DNA of 64,000 nucleotides, from contig NZ_FOPC01000005.1 of NCBI RefSeq assembly GCF_900113375.1, forward strand, positions 1 through 64,000. Reading direction: 5' to 3'. The notes beneath the pieces are model-generated. The model ran no database searches. It worked only from the letters and a program-made list of their open reading frames with translations, and was not told where the DNA came from. Both the position numbers and the translations under genes were made by a program. Origin of the DNA: Algoriphagus hitonicola. Its GTDB lineage: Bacteria; Bacteroidota; Bacteroidia; Cytophagales; Cyclobacteriaceae. Numbering within the stretch: the first letter of the stretch is position 1; every line of letters starts with the position of its first letter. Positions 23,960 to 34,277 of this stretch are shown piece after piece.

Positions 23960-25516
23960 ATGTCCCAAAAATCCAAGATACTCTGGGCAGACGATGAAAT
24001 CGACCTGCTCAAGCCCCATATTCTTTTTCTAGAACAAAAAGGCTATGAAATTACTACCGTAAACTCAGGTGTAGATGCCATCGAAGAAGTAGAATCCCAT
24101 CATTTTGATGTGATATTTCTCGACGAAATGATGCCGGGGATGACCGGGTTGGAAACTCTCCAGCAGATCAAGCAAATCAAGCCACAAATCCCTGTAGTGA
24201 TGATCACCAAAAGTGAAGAAGAACACATCATGAATGATGCGATCGGAGGTAAAATCGCGGATTATCTGATCAAACCTCTTAATCCTAGCCAAATCTGGCT
24301 TTCGGTCAAAAAGATCCTACAAAACCGACAATTGATCGAAGAAAAAACCACACTTAATTATCAGCAGGAGTTTATGCAGATCAGTATGGCTTTAGGTGAT
24401 GCGGTGGATCATGAGGACTGGGCTAGTGTTTATAAAAAACTAGTCTATTGGGAATTGCAGATCGATGATACGGAAAACAAGAGCATGCAGGAAGTGCTCG
24501 AAACTCAAAAAGTAGAAGCAAATGCCTCTTTTGCACGATTTATCAAGGAAAACTACCTCGACTGGATGGAAGAGCGGAATCAGGAAAAGCCGCTCCTTTC
24601 CCATCAGGTCATGAAGAAAAAAGTTTTTCCCCGGCTCAAAGAGCGGTCTTCGCTGTTTTTTATCGTGATTGATAATCTTCGCTACGATCAATGGGAAGAA
24701 ATCGAACCCTTGATCGGGACCTATTTTAATATTCAGGAAAAAGAATCCTACTACAGTATCTTGCCGACTACCACTGCCTTTGCCCGAAACGCTCTGTTCA
24801 GCGGAATGATGCCTTCGGACATGGCGCGATTTTACCCCAATTTCTGGGAAGATGAGGATTCTGACGAAGGAAAAAATAATTTTGAGCCGGATTGGCTGAA
24901 AATCAACTTGGAGAAAAACCGAATCCCTTACAAATTTTCCTACTCCAAAATTATTCAAACCCAGCAAGGCAAGACGGTCTTGGATCAGTTTCATGCCATG
25001 ATGGGGAATGAGCTCAATGTCCTCGTTTACAATTTTGTGGATATGGTGTCCCATGCCCGGACTGATATGAAAATGATTCGTGAATTGGCACCAGATGAAT
25101 CGGCTTACCGTTCTTTGACCAAGAGCTGGTTTGAGCACTCCAGTCTATTCGAACTTTTGAAAAAAATCCATCAGGCTGGTGCAGAAGTCATCATCACTAC
25201 AGACCATGGAACCAAGCGAGTCAACAAGCCTTATCGGATCATCGGGGATAAAAATGTCACGACGAATCTTCGCTACAAGCAGGGGAAAAATTTAAATTTC
25301 GAATCGGGAAAGGTATTTGAAATCCGAAAGCCTGAGGATGCCAAGCTTCCAAGACTCAATGTTTCTTCCACTTATGTTTTTGCAGTGGAGGATTATTTCT
25401 TTGCCTACCCCAATAATTATAATTATTATGTCAATTACTACAAGGATACTTTTCAGCATGGCGGCGTATCTTTGGAGGAAATGATTGTACCGATCGTGTA
25501 CCTTACGCCTAAATAG
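23960..25516 (+). CDS. porX: PorX-type response regulator with PglZ domain (type IX secretion regulator)
   Basis: A 518-residue protein with an N-terminal receiver domain (DDE at 11-13, phospho-acceptor aspartate at 55 in FLDEMMPGMTG, lysine in IKPLNP) and a C-terminal PglZ/alkaline-phosphatase-like domain (FIVIDNLRYDQW, FVDMVSHARTDM, TTDHGTKRVNKP). This architecture is PorX, which controls type IX secretion in Bacteroidota and has phosphodiesterase activity on oligonucleotides in studied members. The partner kinase PorY is not in the window. TsaE follows after eight bases. Confidence 0.95.
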   Translation: MSQKSKILWADDEIDLLKPHILFLEQKGYEITTVNSGVDAIEEVESHHFDVIFLDEMMPGMTGLETLQQIKQIKPQIPVVMITKSEEEHIMNDAIGGKIADYLIKPLNPSQIWLSVKKILQNRQLIEEKTTLNYQQEFMQISMALGDAVDHEDWASVYKKLVYWELQIDDTENKSMQEVLETQKVEANASFARFIKENYLDWMEERNQEKPLLSHQVMKKKVFPRLKERSSLFFIVIDNLRYDQWEEIEPLIGTYFNIQEKESYYSILPTTTAFARNALFSGMMPSDMARFYPNFWEDEDSDEGKNNFEPDWLKINLEKNRIPYKFSYSKIIQTQQGKTVLDQFHAMMGNELNVLVYNFVDMVSHARTDMKMIRELAPDESAYRSLTKSWFEHSSLFELLKKIHQAGAEVIITTDHGTKRVNKPYRIIGDKNVTTNLRYKQGKNLNFESGKVFEIRKPEDAKLPRLNVSSTYVFAVEDYFFAYPNNYNYYVNYYKDTFQHGGVSLEEMIVPIVYLTPK

Positions 25517-27158: not shown

Positions 27159-27632
27159 TTAAGAAAGTAAATTTTGACGTAGAAGAAACTCGAGCTGATC
27201 ATTTGCTTTGATCAAGGCTTGAGTTAGACGTTCATTTTCGCGTCTAAGGGTGTAGATTTCGTAGGCATTTTTGATGACAGTACGAAGATAGTCTTCCTCC
27301 CAGGGTTTGGTGAGGTAGTGATACACCTGTCCCTTATTGATCGCATCTATCACAGCTTGTATATCCGTGTAGCCAGTCAGAAGTATGCGGATAGGATTGG
27401 GATGGATCGGGATTATAGACTCCAAAAACTCCACGCCAGTTTTTTCAGGCATTCGCTGATCGGTAATGATAATATCAATATCTTCCTTGGCAAGAATATC
27501 TACCCCCTCTTGAGCTGAAATGGCTAAAAATATCTTGTAGTCTCTTCTGAAAGTAGCCTTGAACGCCTGAAGGTTATTTTCTTCATCATCAACGTACAGA
27601 ATCTTTATTTTTTCTTCTGATGTGGTTTCCAT
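27159..27632 (-). CDS. Stand-alone response regulator (receiver with coiled-coil tail)
   Basis: A 157-residue protein: a receiver domain (DDEENN at 15-20, phospho-acceptor aspartate at 58 in ITDQRMPEKTG, TKPW around the conserved lysine) followed by a coiled coil (about 125-155) and no output domain. The receiver is of the HupR/RpfG type (LLTGYTDIQAVIDAINKG) and closely resembles the receiver of the hybrid protein at 33192-34277. It is divergent from the ThiF-nitroreductase gene, sharing a 198-base AT-rich intergenic region. Confidence 0.9.
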   Translation of the reverse strand: METTSEEKIKILYVDDEENNLQAFKATFRRDYKIFLAISAQEGVDILAKEDIDIIITDQRMPEKTGVEFLESIIPIHPNPIRILLTGYTDIQAVIDAINKGQVYHYLTKPWEEDYLRTVIKNAYEIYTLRRENERLTQALIKANDQLEFLLRQNLLS

Positions 27633-27743
27633 TAATTTTCAGCAAATAATCTTTTAAAAACTTACACTAAATAATTGTTTTTTTTACTTAAAAACAAACT
27701 ATTTCTTTTAACAATTATTATTGGCCGTAATGAAAATTTGAAC

Positions 27744-27761
27744 GATTATTGATAAATAATC
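27744..27761. promoter_or_regulatory. Palindrome in the divergent 27633-27830 intergenic region
   Basis: GATTATT (27744-27750), GATA, AATAATC (27755-27761): a perfect 7-bp inverted repeat about 70 bases upstream of the ThiF-nitroreductase gene and 110 bases upstream of the response-regulator gene. It could be an operator. The surrounding DNA is so AT-rich that chance is possible. Confidence 0.3.
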
Positions 27762-27830
27762 ACTAAAAATATTTGAGTTTATAAATCAAAAACTAACTTT
27801 ACAAGGCTAATCAGCAAGAGGCGCCCCACC

Positions 27831-30104
27831 ATGATGCTTACATTTCCACAGCTTGATCGTCGAGATCAGGTAAAACCAGTTTTTTTTAACCCAGCTGATG
27901 CTGAGGAATATCAAGTTCTTAAAGAGTTGAAAAAGAATCCCTCTGTATTGGTTGTGGACGAAATAGAGAGTCAGGTAGGGGACTTGATCAAGGCAAATAA
28001 TCCATCTAAAAATTTTGAAAGAAAAGAACTTCAGAAGGAGATAAGTACATTTTTTGAAACTGAAAACAAAGAACGCTTCGGAAATTGGGTCTATTTTCCA
28101 TGGAAATCTACATTGGTTCATCTTCTGAACCGGGAGGATTTTATCAAGGTGCGTACTTCACGAAACAATTATAAAATCACTCCAGAAGAACAGACTCTTT
28201 TGGCTGCCAAAAGAATCGGAATTGTCGGTTTATCTGTCGGTCAAAGTATCGCTTATGCGATTGCTCTTGAGCGGGGCTGTGGGGTGCTGAGATTGGCGGA
28301 TTTTGATACCTTGGAACTCAGTAACTTGAACCGAATAAATGCCGGAGTGACCAATTTGGGACTGGAAAAGATCGTGATCGCTGCCCGGGAGATCAGCGAG
28401 ATTGATCCTTATTTGAAGTTAGAACTTTATCGTGATGGGGTGACCGAGGAAAATATAGCAGATTTTTTGACGCAGGATGGCCAGTTGGATCTTTTGGTTG
28501 ATGAATGTGATAGCTTGGATATTAAAGTTCTGCTTAGGCACAAAGCACAAGCGCTAGGAATCCCTGTGATGATGGAGACGTCAGACCGAGGCATGCTTGA
28601 TATTGAGCGATTTGACTTGGATCCAAACCGCCCGATATTTCACGGACTTCTGGGAAATATCAATCTTGAATCCCTAAAGGGCTTGTCCAACACTCAAAAA
28701 GTAGGAATGGGATTAAAAATCACAGGAACTGATACCCTTTCCCCCCGGATGAAAGCCTCGCTTTTGGAAGTAGGGCAATCGATCAGTAGTTGGCCTCAGT
28801 TGGCTTCGGCCGTATATCTCGGAGGGGCGACCGTGGCTCATGTAGGCCGAAAATTGCTTTTGGGAGAGGTCGTCCAATCGGGAAGGTACTATGTGGATCT
28901 AGACGAAATTGTAAAAATAGAAACTCTCGCAGAGCCTATTTCTGTCCCAGCACCTCCAGTAGTTGGGAATGATGTGAAAGATAAGATTCCAAAAAATATA
29001 TTGCCATCAGGATACTTGCTTACTGATGCTGAATTATCGGATTTAGTGACATTTGCCAATTTGGCACCATCCGGTGGTAATATTCAGCCTTGGATTTGGG
29101 TCTTTGATCAGAAAGGAGTTTTACACTTGATTCATGATCAAGTGAGAAGCCATTCATTGTTGGATTTTAAAGGGACAGGATCCTTGATTGCATTTGGTGC
29201 AGCCCTTGAAAATATCCGCCTTTATGCGGGGAAAAAGGGATTTGAACTTGAGGTAATTACCCATATTGAGGAGTTTGAGCAAGAGTGTATTGCTAGTATT
29301 CGTTTTGTTTCCAAACATGTCTCCTCCATAGAAATCCCTTATTCTGACTTAGTAGACGGGGTTAATCTCCGCTGCACGAATAGAAAAAATACGAAAAGGA
29401 GCCCATTGGAACCCAGTTTGGTAAGCGATCTTTTGGAAATGGCAACTCAGGAAAACATGATCCTAGAGTCAATCGAATCCAAGGAGGAGCTGGAGAAATT
29501 ATCCGGTATCATAGGGGGAATGGATCGAATGAGGCTTTTTCATGAGCAGGGACTTAAGGATTTTATCCAAGAGGTAAGGTGGAGTGAAAAAGAGGCCAAA
29601 GAAACCGGGGATGGGATTGACATCGCTACGCTGGAGCTATCCGGCACGGAGAGAGCGGCAATGAGTCTCTTGAAAGATCCGAGGACAGTTCGCTTTTTTC
29701 GAAAATTTCTGATGGGATATGGACTGACCAAAATCTCGCATGAAACCTTAATGAGTTCGTCAGCTATTTTTCTCTTACAAGCGCGCGATTTCAGTCCCGA
29801 AGCCTATTTACAGGCTGGTAGAGTTTTACAACGGGTTTGGATCAAAGCAAACATGCGGGGGATAAGCTTTCAGCCGGTAACGGCTGCGATGTTTATTTTT
29901 CATAAATTGGCGATGGACAAAAGGCATGGATTTGGTGAAGAGGAAGAAAGATTGATTCAGCAATACAAAAAAGAATTCAATACCTTGTTCAATAAGAACC
30001 TAGATTACAAAGAAATCTTTATGTTTAGGTTAAATATTGCCGGAGAACCCACCGTACGATCATATCGGAGGGATTTGAGTGAAACCCTTATCAAATTAAG
30101 TTAA
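27831..30104 (+). CDS. ThiF/E1-like adenylyltransferase fused to nitroreductase-like domain (Rv1355c/MoeY-like)
   Basis: A 757-residue two-domain protein. Residues about 120-360 are a ThiF/E1-type domain: RIGIVGLSVGQS in place of the usual GxGxxG, then DFDTLELSNLNRIN with the ATP-binding aspartate and arginine. I see no CxxC zinc pairs or obvious catalytic cysteine. Residues about 390-740 resemble the FMN-dependent nitroreductase fold (FANLAPSGGNIQPW and a C-terminal GISFQPVTAAMF). This pairing matches the Rv1355c/MoeY family; MoeY's assigned role in molybdopterin synthesis is unproven. E1-like and nitroreductase enzymes are also found together in azoline peptide modification. Start is one of two adjacent ATGs. 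A TAATG overlap couples it to the next gene. Confidence 0.82.
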   Translation: MMLTFPQLDRRDQVKPVFFNPADAEEYQVLKELKKNPSVLVVDEIESQVGDLIKANNPSKNFERKELQKEISTFFETENKERFGNWVYFPWKSTLVHLLNREDFIKVRTSRNNYKITPEEQTLLAAKRIGIVGLSVGQSIAYAIALERGCGVLRLADFDTLELSNLNRINAGVTNLGLEKIVIAAREISEIDPYLKLELYRDGVTEENIADFLTQDGQLDLLVDECDSLDIKVLLRHKAQALGIPVMMETSDRGMLDIERFDLDPNRPIFHGLLGNINLESLKGLSNTQKVGMGLKITGTDTLSPRMKASLLEVGQSISSWPQLASAVYLGGATVAHVGRKLLLGEVVQSGRYYVDLDEIVKIETLAEPISVPAPPVVGNDVKDKIPKNILPSGYLLTDAELSDLVTFANLAPSGGNIQPWIWVFDQKGVLHLIHDQVRSHSLLDFKGTGSLIAFGAALENIRLYAGKKGFELEVITHIEEFEQECIASIRFVSKHVSSIEIPYSDLVDGVNLRCTNRKNTKRSPLEPSLVSDLLEMATQENMILESIESKEELEKLSGIIGGMDRMRLFHEQGLKDFIQEVRWSEKEAKETGDGIDIATLELSGTERAAMSLLKDPRTVRFFRKFLMGYGLTKISHETLMSSSAIFLLQARDFSPEAYLQAGRVLQRVWIKANMRGISFQPVTAAMFIFHKLAMDKRHGFGEEEERLIQQYKKEFNTLFNKNLDYKEIFMFRLNIAGEPTVRSYRRDLSETLIKLS

Positions 30105-30817
30105 TGTTTACTTTCAAAGCATTTAGAGCTGTCGATGAACCAGAAATTTGCGATATGTTTATTGAGGGTCATGCTAACGTGTTGAAAGATTATGGTGTAA
30201 CCAAAGTAACCTCTTCAAATAATGACTGGAAGTTTAACCCGTATGTGTTTGTGGTTACAGTTCATGAAGATTCTACTGGGAAAGTTGTAAGTGGACTGCG
30301 AATTCACATCGCTCACGAAGATTTTCCGCTACCGATGGAAGGTGCCATCGCGCCGGTCGATTCAAAAATTTTTGAATTGGTAAAAGGATATCGAATCAAT
30401 GGAGGTACTGGCGAAATAGGTGGGTTGTGGAATAGTCGGCTAATTTCAGGATACGGAATTGGGGCAATATTTTTATCAAGAACTTCTTTGGTGATAGCCG
30501 AGCAGTTAAATGTCCCATCGCTTTTTGCACTCTGTGCCGAATACACCTTAAAACCAACCTTGCAGAAGGGATTTGAAATAGAAGAAAATATTGGGAATAA
30601 AGGCACCTTCTTTTATCCAAAATTGGATTTAGTTGCGACTCTGGCGGTTTTGAAAGATGTCAAGAATCTTCCAGTGGCGCTTCCTGTCGAACGGGATTTT
30701 ATCCTGGAATTGCGAGAAAATCTTGATTGTTCCCGAATGGAAAATACGCTGAAAGGACCGGTAGAAATCACCTATCAGCTTAAGATTAAAAATCCTGACT
30801 GGAGAAAAAATGCCTAA
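30104..30817 (+). CDS. GNAT-like acyltransferase coupled to the ThiF-nitroreductase gene
   Basis: A 237-residue soluble protein. The pattern is of an N-acyltransferase/autoinducer-synthase-like GNAT fold: FKAFRAVDEPEICDMFIEGH at the start, FVVTVHEDSTGKVVSGLRIH (beta-hairpin) near residue 45-65, and GGTGEIGGLWNSRLISGYGIGAIFL, with the likely acyl-CoA-binding loop, at about 103-127. Family assignment is by pattern only. The TAATG junction shows it is made together with the ThiF-nitroreductase protein, so it may acylate the same product. Confidence 0.6.
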   Translation: MFTFKAFRAVDEPEICDMFIEGHANVLKDYGVTKVTSSNNDWKFNPYVFVVTVHEDSTGKVVSGLRIHIAHEDFPLPMEGAIAPVDSKIFELVKGYRINGGTGEIGGLWNSRLISGYGIGAIFLSRTSLVIAEQLNVPSLFALCAEYTLKPTLQKGFEIEENIGNKGTFFYPKLDLVATLAVLKDVKNLPVALPVERDFILELRENLDCSRMENTLKGPVEITYQLKIKNPDWRKNA

Positions 30818-30883
30818 AATGTAGCCGATAAAAAGAGTTTAAATAGGAGATTTAATAGCTTGGACAGTCAGCCAAAATGAGGT

Positions 30884-30901
30884 TCTCAAAAATGTTTGAG
30901 A
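30884..30901. promoter_or_regulatory. Inverted repeat upstream of the histidine kinase gene
   Basis: TCTCAAA (30884-30890), AATG, TTTGAGA (30895-30901), a perfect 7-bp repeat in the 270-base gap between the GNAT-like gene and the 7TM kinase. No T run follows at once, so a regulatory site is as likely as a weak terminator. I see nothing else definite in the gap 30818-31087. Confidence 0.3.
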
Positions 30902-31087
30902 CAGACGAATTGACCTTTAAAAATTTAACTTATTAACATTTACAGATGAAATCTAGCATGACTAAAACGTTGACCAAAAGGCTATTTACTTAAATGCGAA
31001 ATTTTCACTTAATGGATAGATTTGGGACAGGTTACTCAGGTCTTTGGAGCTGGCTGGTTTTGACTATTGAAAATAAATCATGAACTG

Positions 31088-33199
31088 ATGAAATTAGTAA
31101 TTCTTTACTTATTAGTTTTTTTAAAGGGCTTTTCGCCCATCCAATTAACGGAGGAGCCTCAAGACCTGAATAGTTATAGTTATCTCATATTGGATAAGGA
31201 CGAGACCTTGTCTATTGAGGGAGTTTTGGTGAGTAATGATTTTATTGATCTTGAAAATGAGGTAAAGAATTTCGGGATCAACAATGATGTGGTTTGGTTG
31301 AAGTATAGTGTTTTAAATAATAGCTCCAGTGAGACCAAGTTTTTTTACATCAACAATCCCTCCTTGGATAGTTTGCAGTTGTATGTGGCGAGTGAAGGGG
31401 AAGTTTTAAAGCAATATTCGGGAGGGCGACTGGAGGATTATAATTCTAAACCCATCCCCTCCAAATCTATAATTTTTAAGATCGACTTGCCTCAGGGACA
31501 AGTTTCTGATTTATACCTAAGAGTAAAAAGCGTCAATAAAAAAATTATTACCTCAACCATAAGCAACCGAGATTTTGTAGAAGGACTGATCAATAATGAA
31601 AATATCTTTTTCGGGATTTTTACAGGAGTGATTTTAGGGCTGTTCTTCTATAATCTATTCTTGTATTTCTCTGTTAAAGATAAACTTTATCTTATTTATG
31701 TCATTCACACTGTTCTTGTCTGGTTTGCGCAATCCTCTATTTTAGGATTCACGCAAGAGTTAATTTGGCAAGATTCGGTTTGGTTAAACCTCAGGTCAGG
31801 GGTGATTTTCTCTTCTTTGGTAAGTATGGTGGGGATCTGGTTTTTACGGGTATTTCTATCGACTAAATCCTTCATCCCAAAAATCGACAGTGGCTTTTAT
31901 TACATCTATGGAGTCTATTTCTTTATTCTGATTAATGCTTTTTTCTTTTCTATCACGGTAAGCTATCAGACTTTATTGGTCACCCAATCCATTGTAGTTC
32001 TTTATGTCTTGTTTGCCGCTTTTTCTGTACTTAAGCTAGGATATAGACCGGCCCGCTATTATTTGGTGGCCTGGTCAATCTTTATGTTGGGGATTTTCCT
32101 ATTTGTATTGAGCGAAATGGGCTTGATTCCCACTAATAATCTGACGGCCTACATCATGCCTCTGGGTTCAGCTTTGGAGGTAGTGTTGCTCTCCTTTGCC
32201 CTAGCTGATAAAATCAATATCCTCAAAAAGGAAAAAGAATCTGAACAGCTTGAGCGACTACGGGTATTGAAAGAAAATGAATCACTTATCAGGGAGCAAA
32301 ATACCTTGCTGGAAGATAAGGTAAGGCTGAGAACTGATGAATTGGAGCAGGCATTACGAAATCTCCAAAATACCCAAAGTCAGCTGGTCAGTCAGGAAAA
32401 AATGGCCTCACTCGGTCAGTTGACTGCCGGTATTGCGCATGAAATCAATAATCCGATCAACTTTGTGAGCTCTAATATCATGCCGCTCAAACGCGACGTG
32501 GCGGATATCATGGAAGTGATTGAGTTTTATAGAAATACTGCTAATAATGAATTTACTCCAGAATCAATTAAGAAAGCCAAACGACTCGAAGAAGATTTAG
32601 AATTGGATTATGTCCTCGAGGAGGTGGATCAGCTTCTTAAAGGAATGGAAGAGGGAGCAAAGCGAACCGTAGAAATCGTCAAGGGACTTCGGTTGTTCTC
32701 CCGAGTAGACGAGCAGGATATCAAAAAAGTGGATCTGCATGATGGGATCAACAGTACCTTGATTCTTTTGAACAGTTCGATTCCAGGCAAAATCCGAATC
32801 GTTCGTGAATTTGGCGAACTTCCCATGGTCGAATGTCTGGCCGGTAAAATCAATCAGGTATTCATGAATATCATCAATAATGCAGTCCATGCATTGAGTG
32901 ATCACATTGATGAAATTAACGATCCGAAAATCGAGATACGGACCAAATCTCTGGGGGAGGCTGTTGTCGTAGAAATTAATGACAATGGACCGGGTATGCC
33001 GGAGCACGTGAGGCAGCGGATTTTCGAACCTTTTTTTACTACTAAGTCCGTAGGAAAGGGGACAGGTTTGGGGCTTTCGATAGTTTATTCTATTATTGAG
33101 AATCACAAAGGAACACTGGAGGTGGAAACTGAGGTGGGCAAAGGGACTACTTTTATTATAACGCTACCTATTTATCAAAGCACATCAAAGTATGAATAG
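31088..33199 (+). CDS. 7TM-DISM sensor histidine kinase
   Basis: About 703 residues. A signal peptide (MKLVILYLLVF...) is followed by an extracytoplasmic 7TMR-DISMED2-type domain (about 25-165), seven transmembrane helices (about 175-380), a coiled coil (about 385-440), and a histidine kinase with the phospho-accepting H in AGIAHEINNPINF near residue 451. The ATPase boxes are INNAVHALSDH, DNGPGMP and GTGLGLSI. DISMED2 domains are thought to bind carbohydrate-like or small extracellular ligands. I choose the ATG at 31088; a TTG at 31067 is in frame but would precede the signal peptide. It overlaps the next gene by eight bases. Confidence 0.92.
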   Translation: MKLVILYLLVFLKGFSPIQLTEEPQDLNSYSYLILDKDETLSIEGVLVSNDFIDLENEVKNFGINNDVVWLKYSVLNNSSSETKFFYINNPSLDSLQLYVASEGEVLKQYSGGRLEDYNSKPIPSKSIIFKIDLPQGQVSDLYLRVKSVNKKIITSTISNRDFVEGLINNENIFFGIFTGVILGLFFYNLFLYFSVKDKLYLIYVIHTVLVWFAQSSILGFTQELIWQDSVWLNLRSGVIFSSLVSMVGIWFLRVFLSTKSFIPKIDSGFYYIYGVYFFILINAFFFSITVSYQTLLVTQSIVVLYVLFAAFSVLKLGYRPARYYLVAWSIFMLGIFLFVLSEMGLIPTNNLTAYIMPLGSALEVVLLSFALADKINILKKEKESEQLERLRVLKENESLIREQNTLLEDKVRLRTDELEQALRNLQNTQSQLVSQEKMASLGQLTAGIAHEINNPINFVSSNIMPLKRDVADIMEVIEFYRNTANNEFTPESIKKAKRLEEDLELDYVLEEVDQLLKGMEEGAKRTVEIVKGLRLFSRVDEQDIKKVDLHDGINSTLILLNSSIPGKIRIVREFGELPMVECLAGKINQVFMNIINNAVHALSDHIDEINDPKIEIRTKSLGEAVVVEINDNGPGMPEHVRQRIFEPFFTTKSVGKGTGLGLSIVYSIIENHKGTLEVETEVGKGTTFIITLPIYQSTSKYE

Positions 33200-34277
33200 C
33201 AACATTCATGTGCTCTACATTGACGATGAGGACAACAACCTCAAGTCATTTCGGGCCACGCTGAGAAAAGATTTTAAGATTTTTACTGCTATAGACGCAG
33301 AGGAGGGGTTGAAAATAGCTCAAGAAGAGGAAATCCATGTGGTCATTGCAGATCAGCGCATGCCGGGGATGACTGGGACTGAGTTCTTTGAAAAACTTAT
33401 CGAAATCAATCCCGATCCCATTCGAATTCTATTAACCGGCTATTCGGACATTGCGAGTGTCATCGATGCAATCAACAAAGGCGAAGTGTATCGATTTATT
33501 GATAAGCCCTGGAATATCGAGCAAATCAAAAATTCGATAAAAAATGCAGCCGATATCTTTTTTATGCGTCAGGAGCTGAAAGAAAAAAATATTCGACTTC
33601 AGAAGCTGCACAGTGAGATGAATCAATTTGTTTACAGCCTTTCTCACGAGTTAAGAGGGCCGTTGATGAGTATATCGGGAGTTTCCAAATTGGCAAAAAT
33701 GGAGGTGGCAGATCCTCAGATTTTGGAATATTTTGACATGATCGATACGGCTACGACTAAGCTGGATGATTTTATTTATAAAATGCTGGACTTTTATCGA
33801 TCGACCAAAATCGACCATAAAATCTCCGAAATCAATTTTTCAGATGTGATCAACCAACAGATGGAGGCCTATCAAGCCAAGTTTGATTTGAGTCATTTCC
33901 ATATCGAGACCCAAGTCAATCAAGAGGTTCCATTTTACTGTGATGATGCCAAAATCCGGGTGATTTTAAATAATTTGTTCAGTAATTCGGTCCAGTTTCA
34001 AAAGCATGAACCCGGGGAAAAGCGAATCGCCTTGACAGTGGATGTCAGCGAGAATGAAGCCACAATCCTGCTTGAGGATAATGGAATAGGGATAGAAGAT
34101 CGACACCATCCCGAAGTGTTTAATTTGTTTATGCGAGCCACCCAAAAAAATGTGGGAACTGGCCTGGGCTTATACATGGTCAAGGAAGCCGTGGAGCAAC
34201 TTGGTGGCACGATCACCCTAGAATCCATGCTTCACGTCGGCACTACTTTCAGAGTGATCCTTCCCAGTCTTAAATAA
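33192..34277 (+). CDS. Hybrid receiver-histidine kinase protein
   Basis: A 361-residue soluble protein: a receiver domain (phospho-acceptor aspartate at 54 in IADQRMPGMTG), a coiled-coil linker (about 120-145), a HisKA domain with VYSLSHELRGPL, and a HATPase domain (NNLFSNSVQFQ, DNGIGIED, GTGLGLYMV). It overlaps the preceding 7TM kinase by eight bases and very probably receives phosphate from it. Its receiver is paralogous to the stand-alone regulator at 27159-27632. No DNA-binding output is present, so the final target is elsewhere. Confidence 0.92.
   Translation: MNSNIHVLYIDDEDNNLKSFRATLRKDFKIFTAIDAEEGLKIAQEEEIHVVIADQRMPGMTGTEFFEKLIEINPDPIRILLTGYSDIASVIDAINKGEVYRFIDKPWNIEQIKNSIKNAADIFFMRQELKEKNIRLQKLHSEMNQFVYSLSHELRGPLMSISGVSKLAKMEVADPQILEYFDMIDTATTKLDDFIYKMLDFYRSTKIDHKISEINFSDVINQQMEAYQAKFDLSHFHIETQVNQEVPFYCDDAKIRVILNNLFSNSVQFQKHEPGEKRIALTVDVSENEATILLEDNGIGIEDRHHPEVFNLFMRATQKNVGTGLGLYMVKEAVEQLGGTITLESMLHVGTTFRVILPSLK

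Follow-up and report, generated by a model that had tools for sequence, protein, structure and literature searches.

A conserved synthase-receptor cassette in Algoriphagus hitonicola and other Bacteroidota, read as a predicted N-acyl amino acid autoinducer system

In TrzS (Rv1355c) a ThiF cyclase and a flavin oxidase form a single protein, which acts with the acyltransferase TrzA (Rv1356c) to yield N-acyl tryptazolones (PMC12856293); the same paper likens oxazolones to acyl homoserine lactones and calls their physiological role a "major unresolved question". The related TyzACB pathway acts on tyrosine, and FeeM and BjaI are among the structures nearest to TyzA (PMC10404671). Here we analyze a locus in a 64,000-nucleotide stretch of Algoriphagus hitonicola DNA (positions 1 to 64,000 of contig NZ_FOPC01000005.1, assembly GCF_900113375.1; hereafter the window). 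It encodes a fusion of a ThiF-like cyclase and a flavin-dependent oxidase half (FDO), a 237-residue acyltransferase (AT) that is the predicted synthase, a 7TM-DISM histidine kinase, a soluble receiver-kinase hybrid, and a divergent stand-alone receiver. Sequence comparison shows that synthase and receptor form a genuine, conserved cassette whose specificity is exchanged jointly. We think it best interpreted as an autoinducer system that would use N-acyl amino acids and oxazolones, with both the chemistry and the ligand predicted.

The locus among described systems

The TrzAS, TyzACB, and OxzAB pathways resemble the locus in that a ThiF cyclase and a flavin oxidase (a single protein in both TrzS and OxzB) are encoded beside a FeeM/BjaI-like N-acyltransferase (PMC10404671). 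They differ in that the accessible text reports no receptor for them, whereas the locus has a dedicated kinase, hybrid, and receiver, and a variable tailoring enzyme. In PMC12856293 the term two-component is absent, and c-di-GMP genes are placed near trzAS. The preliminary description of the window held that the enzyme family had no proven function, which the work on Rv1355c/TrzS and Rv1356c/TrzA has made outdated (PMC12856293). It also drew a parallel to azoline peptide modification; because the TrzS/TrzA product is an N-acyl tryptazolone, the nearest chemistry for the locus is instead acyl-oxazolone biosynthesis. A role in modifying ribosomally synthesized azoline peptides was set aside since the family chemistry is now published, and no search was made for a precursor peptide or YcaO.

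By analogy of layout, and not of membership, the locus may be said to work like PhcBSRQ of Ralstonia, in which the synthesis gene has as neighbours the genes for a sensor kinase, for PhcR (a soluble receiver-kinase), and for PhcQ (a stand-alone receiver), without DNA-binding domains (PMC8578825, PMC11960443). PhcB and PhcS cluster according to the type of signal, and PhcR and PhcQ according to phylotype (PMC8578825). The two differ in that PhcB yields 3-hydroxy fatty acid methyl esters, whereas the locus has predicted N-acyl amino acid chemistry and a 7TM-DISM sensor, and lies in another phylum. In place of a PhcB-type methyltransferase, the window has the ThiF-FDO fusion and AT; some relatives carry methyltransferases. 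LuxI-fold synthases such as BjaI and FeeM share the predicted fold of AT with no sequence-level match, and no LuxR-type receptor was seen in the cassette. RetS and other 7TM-DISM receptors are like the kinase in that domain, RetS also in its periplasmic domain; no acyl-amino-acid ligand for this class appeared among the matches listed in a search of the open-access literature. In CqsA-CqsS and LqsA-LqsS, an autoinducer synthase is also encoded beside a multi-span sensor kinase, with a different synthase family and alpha-hydroxyketone signals. ComQXPA of Bacillus differs in having a peptide signal and unrelated enzymes and receptor. It is like the locus in its discrete communication groups and its diverse alleles of signal maker and sensor (PMC4408185). 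We found no published description of the cassette among at least the best matches in the open-access literature; subscription papers and preprints lay outside that scope.

Linkage and co-exchange of synthase and sensor

We searched 392 evenly drawn Bacteroidota genomes with a synthase profile (A1) and found the synthase in 14: the window's own genome, G034 (locus L048), and 12 others (L numbers denote loci and G numbers genomes). A 7TM-DISM kinase adjoins the synthase in all 14, and 13 of these loci have a receiver-kinase hybrid; the remaining one, L158, has a receiver-PAS-kinase protein instead. The synthase occurs in 106 of 201 genomes in the family of G059 and in 60 of 195 in that of G181. 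Sixty neighbourhoods (40 and 20) were taken from these 166 synthase-bearing genomes, chosen partly by genus rather than by random draw, and the kinase adjoins the synthase in 39 of the 40 (the exception is L195) and in 20 of the 20, that is, in 59/60. Starting from the fusion, 65 Bacteroidota loci (within the best 80 of 137) include 62 with the synthase, 59 with synthase and kinase, and 54 that also have the hybrid; several of the misses lie on short contigs. Within the window's genus, 22 of 36 genomes (its own included) have the full fusion, one has it cut at contig ends, and two have the ThiF half only; among the order's other genera, 22 genomes gave weak and partial fusion matches at most. 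The gene set recurs within differing flanking contexts across Bacteroidota, which argues for more than chance.

According to the preliminary description, the enzyme-kinase link would be accidental if the enzyme genes were rarely adjacent to two-component genes in related genomes. That comparison, run in Bacteroidota, leaves the link standing (14/14 and 59/60). Outside the phylum the link fails: 13 of 15 loci of other or unplaced phyla have no kinase match, and the matches in the other two (L107 and L115) are hybrid kinases without 7TM-DISM. In these two, from a Pseudomonadota and a Myxococcota metagenome-assembled genome, a large hybrid kinase adjoins the fusion, hinting that other receptor types may pair with it. 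In Nannocystis (L103, L106, L110, L112, and L113), two ThiF fusion genes flank a remote synthase-like gene (26% identity), without a kinase. The window's genome encodes six 7TM-DISM proteins, and no synthase or ThiF was labelled in the flanks of the other five genes. We note that labels come from blastp against the window proteins and a few relatives, with mechanical starts of open reading frames (ORFs), and that three loci were affected: L216 has a ThiF-FDO fusion but was counted as "none" in the neighbourhood tally, and probably also in the 134-locus count below; L097 was called ThiF-only through a split ORF; and L207 begins at a contig end.

We then compared 36 distinct loci from Algoriphagus and near kin (L078 is from Mongoliitalea and L079 from Aquiflexum), leaving out the incomplete L059, L070, and L122 and the duplicates L061, L068, L069, L072, L073, L076, and L077. 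Correlations were computed on 32 of them with flank distance controlled (without L037 and L058, which have missing flanks, and L056 and L057, which have no FDO); the flank tree has 35 rows (without L037) and the FDO tree 34. The species pattern is kept by the flanks, the receiver, the kinase domain, and the hybrid, and is lost in the synthase and the sensor half of the kinase. Between A. formosus (L066) and A. marincola (L067), protein identity is 46% for AT and 32% for the sensor, against 95-100% for every other segment compared (100% for PglZ-receiver, AlaDH, and receiver; 99% for FDO, kinase, and PPase; 98% for ThiF and hybrid). At the DNA level, the two are 92-100% identical up to the AT start, 47-57% over AT and sensor, and 87-99% afterwards, two edge-straddling comparison windows aside. 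Between our window and L035, its sister in the flank tree (support 100/99), the breaks fall at ~30104 and ~32150-32250.

The alleles form groups I (23 loci), II (11), and III (2), each of which is set off whole by a single branch in the AT tree and likewise in the sensor tree. Allele group changes twice on each of these trees, compared with eight times on those of the flanks, kinase, and hybrid, nine on ThiF, and six on FDO (without group III). The AT-sensor partial correlation is 0.91 (0/2000 permutations), whereas that of the sensor with its own kinase domain is -0.20 and that of AT with FDO 0.23. Coarse AT and sensor clusters match in all 36 loci save L079, which has its own synthase cluster with a group I sensor. 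Over 321 between-group pairs, the changepoint falls at kinase residue 373 (median; interquartile range 367-374, range 176-377), with 25% identity before it and 82% after. Identity in four between-group pairs is 13-23% for the ectodomain and 25-38% for the 7TM bundle; as both are divergent, the ligand site is not assignable to just one. Judged from these alignments and trees, a synthase(-tailoring)-sensor block is swapped between lineages against a constant kinase-hybrid-receiver chassis, and the discrete allele groups look like pherotypes.

A second genus (g29), taken to be Sphingobacterium, offers 24 loci in which a tailoring gene stands between synthase and kinase genes, after the former and before the latter. 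In 14 loci this middle gene is ThiF, and in 10 it is a gene of ~255-273 residues, a class I methyltransferase in the three of these 10 that were scanned (Pfam). Changes between the ThiF and methyltransferase types number one on the sensor tree (support 100), three on AT, four on the backbone, and five on the kinase. Between L163 and L174, the synthases are 81% identical, the tailoring genes different, and the sensors 23% identical. The partial correlation over all 24 loci is 0.57 for AT-sensor and 0.02 for AT-kinase. When the two types are taken separately, the synthase, the tailoring enzyme, and the sensor vary together (partial correlations 0.83-0.97), with 0.92 for AT-sensor across the intervening gene; for the ThiF type, correlations with the kinase half come to -0.09 and 0.10. 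The sensor thus changes both with the synthase and with the tailoring enzyme, which is the pattern expected of a receptor for the finished product.

Elsewhere the tailoring slot holds ThiF-FDO, ThiF alone, an ICMT-family methyltransferase (PF04140; L155 and L156), or a FAD_binding_4 protein (L212), and six loci (L204, L205, L213, L215, L218, and L222) have no co-directional tailoring gene. Over 134 non-redundant loci (each with a synthase, a kinase of >650 residues, and a hybrid of 340-400 residues), the sensor tree requires 17 changes of tailoring type, the AT tree 20, and the kinase and hybrid trees 25 each; shuffled labels give ~55. We infer that the tailoring enzymes act on the synthase product and its carboxylate. 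Two loci stand apart in their enzyme genes. In Taibaiella (L133:8001-10082), a 693-residue ThiF protein has no Pfam match in its C-terminal part, the expected place of the oxidase; the domain there is perhaps degenerate or of another kind. In L216 a single fusion gene and a single kinase gene enclose a tandem pair of synthase genes, a possible duplication of the signal maker.

Predicted enzymes, signalling proteins, and gene layout

The fusion matches Pfam ThiF (6.5e-19) and Nitroreductase (7.4e-6) and belongs to NF005901, the "Rv1355c family", at 754 bits (cut-off 476) over residues 10-753, spanning both halves. Asp227 of the ThiF adenylation motif is kept in 18 of 18 aligned fusions and was equated with TrzS Asp217 by motif position, without alignment to TrzS; the TrzS family has Arg540 and Gln651 near its flavin mononucleotide site (M. 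smegmatis numbering). The FDO half weakly matches the Acg nitroreductase (2ymv). A MoeB/molybdopterin role was rejected, with 42-51 bits against moeB/MoeB models (cut-offs 266-449) versus the 754 above.

The description of AT as GNAT-like holds by fold, and weakly in seven of 46 relatives that match Acetyltransf_1 (Pfam), but not by sequence in the window's own protein, which has no Pfam or NCBIfam match at E 0.1. No homology to solved FeeM/LuxI-type members was detected by phmmer against PDB or by profile (both E up to 1). Its AlphaFold model (pLDDT 92.9) is closest in PDB to the acyl homoserine lactone synthase BjaI (5w8a, E 2.5e-7) and matches the N-acyl amino acid synthase FeeM (2g0b, E 3.5e-7, TMt 0.79) by Foldseek, as expected of a FeeM/LuxI-like GNAT fold. 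The substrate of the modelled AT is beyond what fold by itself proves.

On the signalling side, the kinase is a 7TM-DISM receptor kinase by Pfam (7TMR-DISM_7TM, PF07695, 8e-45; 7TMR-DISMED2, PF07696, 2.8e-23; HATPase_c, 3.4e-26), and the hybrid has Response_reg, HisKA, and HATPase_c. The phosphorelay residues are intact (kinase His458 with the ATP-site motifs, hybrid Asp54 and His152, and Asp58 of the stand-alone receiver), and the receivers of stand-alone protein and hybrid are 56% identical. In the stand-alone receiver no DNA-binding domain was found, Response_reg being the sole Pfam match above the curated cut-off. Many loci outside Algoriphagus have a second small receiver downstream of the hybrid. 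The ectodomain model is similar to the RetS periplasmic domain (3jyb, TMt 0.77); a weak match of the 7TM part to Wntless (TM 0.38, root-mean-square deviation 19) was not used.

All five genes of the preliminary description are present in the ORF list and Pfam results with their coordinates and strands, including the divergent receiver (Table 1). The ATG of AT overlaps the fusion stop TAA by one base (TAATG), and the hybrid gene overlaps the kinase gene by 8 bases. The kinase more likely starts at ATG 31088 than at the mechanical TTG, in line with the ATG of relatives (alignment judged by eye). Upstream of the fusion, a stretch ATTTGA ... TAACTTTAC is conserved in Algoriphagus and resembles a Bacteroidota promoter. 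A 270-base gap (30818-31087) separates synthase and kinase in the window, where in most Algoriphagus relatives these genes abut or overlap. It is perhaps a scar of exchange, and inspection by eye found no convincing promoter in it. A few genes upstream of the cassette, at 23960-25516, is a receiver-PglZ protein, which remains a neighbour in Algoriphagus and which we take to be of the PorX kind, of type 9 secretion. Many draft genomes of the genus place the cassette ~26-30 kb from the end of a contig, as might be expected if a repeated element, e.g., an rRNA operon, lay there.

Table 1. Positions of the cassette features in the window
Feature	Position	Strand	Details and basis
Stand-alone receiver gene	27159..27632	-	157 residues, divergent from cassette; phospho-acceptor Asp58; Pfam Response_reg, motifs
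Divergent intergenic region	27633..27830	.	Alignment of 35 intergenic regions
ThiF-nitroreductase fusion	27831..30104	+	757 residues
ThiF/E1-like cyclase half of fusion (residues 1-370)	27831..28940	+	Pfam ThiF; Asp227 in adenylation motif
Flavin-dependent oxidase half, nitroreductase-type (residues 391-757)	29001..30104	+	Pfam Nitroreductase; NF005901 covers both halves
AT, FeeM/LuxI-fold acyltransferase, predicted N-acyl amino acid synthase	30104..30817	+	237 residues; AlphaFold, Foldseek; exchanged block begins here
Kinase ORF	31067..33199	+	710 residues; mechanical start TTG 31067
Sensor half of kinase	31088..32185	+	Pfam PF07696, PF07695; changepoint; exchanged block ends at ~residue 373
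Sensor ectodomain	31175-31543	+	Pfam
7TM-DISM bundle	31598-32212	+	Pfam model extends slightly beyond exchange breakpoint
Histidine kinase half, conserved chassis	32186..33199	+	His458; Pfam HATPase_c, HisKA below cut-off; motifs
Soluble receiver-histidine kinase hybrid, conserved chassis	33192..34277	+	Asp54 and His152; Pfam, motifs

Proposed model, alternatives, and meaning

We propose, with good confidence, that the locus is a small-molecule (fatty amino-acid) signal system with its own adjacent receptor, an autoinducer with pherotypes. The steps would be as follows: (i) AT would N-acylate an amino acid from acyl-CoA or acyl carrier protein (acyl-ACP), judging from its fold and the characterised TyzA and TrzA; (ii) the ThiF half would adenylate the carboxylate and close the oxazolone ring, and the flavin half would desaturate, as predicted from TrzS of the same NCBIfam family; (iii) the product, or a form of it, would get outside, where the adjacent kinase would bind it through its ectodomain, its 7TM bundle, or both, as the exchange pattern suggests; (iv) the kinase would phosphorylate two related receivers, hybrid and stand-alone, consistent with the intact His/Asp residues and the receiver identity; and (v) output would probably run via protein contact, as no DNA-binding domain was seen. 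As in an autoinducer system, the synthase is encoded with the receptor and co-varies with it, weakly so in the mixed-genus set described below. The earlier suggestion that the enzymes make a small molecule sensed by the adjacent kinase thus gains support from linkage and co-exchange, with the product and ligand themselves predicted; the other option, that the enzymes are controlled by the kinase, by itself gives no reason for only the sensor half swapping with the enzymes.

More broadly, and with somewhat less assurance, we lean towards a widespread, modular Bacteroidota autoinducer family, in which a LuxI-fold enzyme would make an N-acyl amino acid scaffold and each lineage would handle the carboxylate in its own way (a ThiF oxazolone with or without desaturation, two methyltransferase types, or no neighbouring tailoring gene). 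Each form would be read by a matched 7TM-DISM sensor on the same phosphorelay, module exchange would create pherotypes, and the role of acyl-oxazolones would be cell-cell signalling.

Several observations weigh against the autoinducer reading. In L195 the synthase and fusion are adjacent with no kinase or hybrid labelled nearby, and L119 and other loci are also without a kinase. Among 38 mixed-genus loci outside Algoriphagus, which contain few close pairs, the partial correlation is 0.34 for AT-sensor versus 0.28 for AT-kinase and 0.40 for ThiF-kinase, and the smaller methyltransferase-type set of Sphingobacterium keeps a weak correlation with the kinase half (0.25, 0.30). Human GCN5 matches the AT model at E 3.2e-7, about as well as BjaI and FeeM, so that the fold is unspecific. 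Ligand, binding, export, and output are all predicted. Oxazolones of M. smegmatis and RHA1 are more abundant in cells and acyl-tryptophans outside in the medium (PMC12856293); it may therefore be the acyl amino acid that diffuses.

We weighed three rivals. It is possible, if unlikely, that the enzyme product is a lipid or a stress metabolite and that the two-component system merely regulates the enzymes on an unrelated outside cue: the genes are adjacent and partly overlapping, the ligand of the kinase is a prediction, and stress links of oxazolones are discussed in PMC12856293. Yet if the cue were unrelated, there would be no reason why the sensor follows the synthase (0.91) rather than the kinase domain of its own protein (-0.20), or why the Sphingobacterium sensor splits by a carboxyl-tailoring enzyme.

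A serious rival, which also tells against the autoinducer reading but which we rate as improbable, is physical linkage alone. On this view synthase and sensor would not be functionally matched; crossovers require homologous sequence on both sides, and divergent neighbouring genes would therefore travel together on one recombination tract. Synthase and kinase genes do abut or overlap in most Algoriphagus loci, the Sphingobacterium tailoring gene adjoins the kinase and tracks the sensor best, and the alleles are too divergent for crossovers within the block. The best counter is that AT lies equally near fusion and kinase, yet tracks the sensor (0.91) and not FDO (0.23). Linkage also has to accommodate the matched coarse groups in all 36 loci apart from L079 and the AT-sensor correlation of 0.92 in Sphingobacterium despite an intervening gene, and it leaves the long retention of divergent alleles unexplained.

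Very unlikely, in our estimate, is that the product serves chiefly in competition or as an antimicrobial and that the kinase senses it to tune production or tolerance, an autoinducing antibiotic as lantibiotics are. PMC12856293 cites antimicrobial N-acyl tyrosine derivatives, and allele diversity fits competition as well. Besides the second small receiver, though, no other gene stood out as recurring (by eye, with unlabelled ORFs left unannotated), which leaves no evident gene for immunity or export. A chance neighbourhood, finally, was set aside on the phylum sample (14/14) and the family neighbourhoods (59/60).

The locus makes one answer to the question of oxazolone role directly testable, and A. 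formosus and A. marincola provide a natural allele pair in which nearly all the difference between the loci is confined to synthase and sensor. Co-exchange of the maker and the sensing half, as seen by comparing genomes, fits what is expected of a private chemical language between related species. If true, this would be a common Bacteroidota autoinducer system (in 106/201 and 60/195 genomes of two families and 14/392 phylum-wide), an orphan family of receptors would gain a named class of ligand, and the locus would provide ready-made orthogonal signal-receptor pairs.

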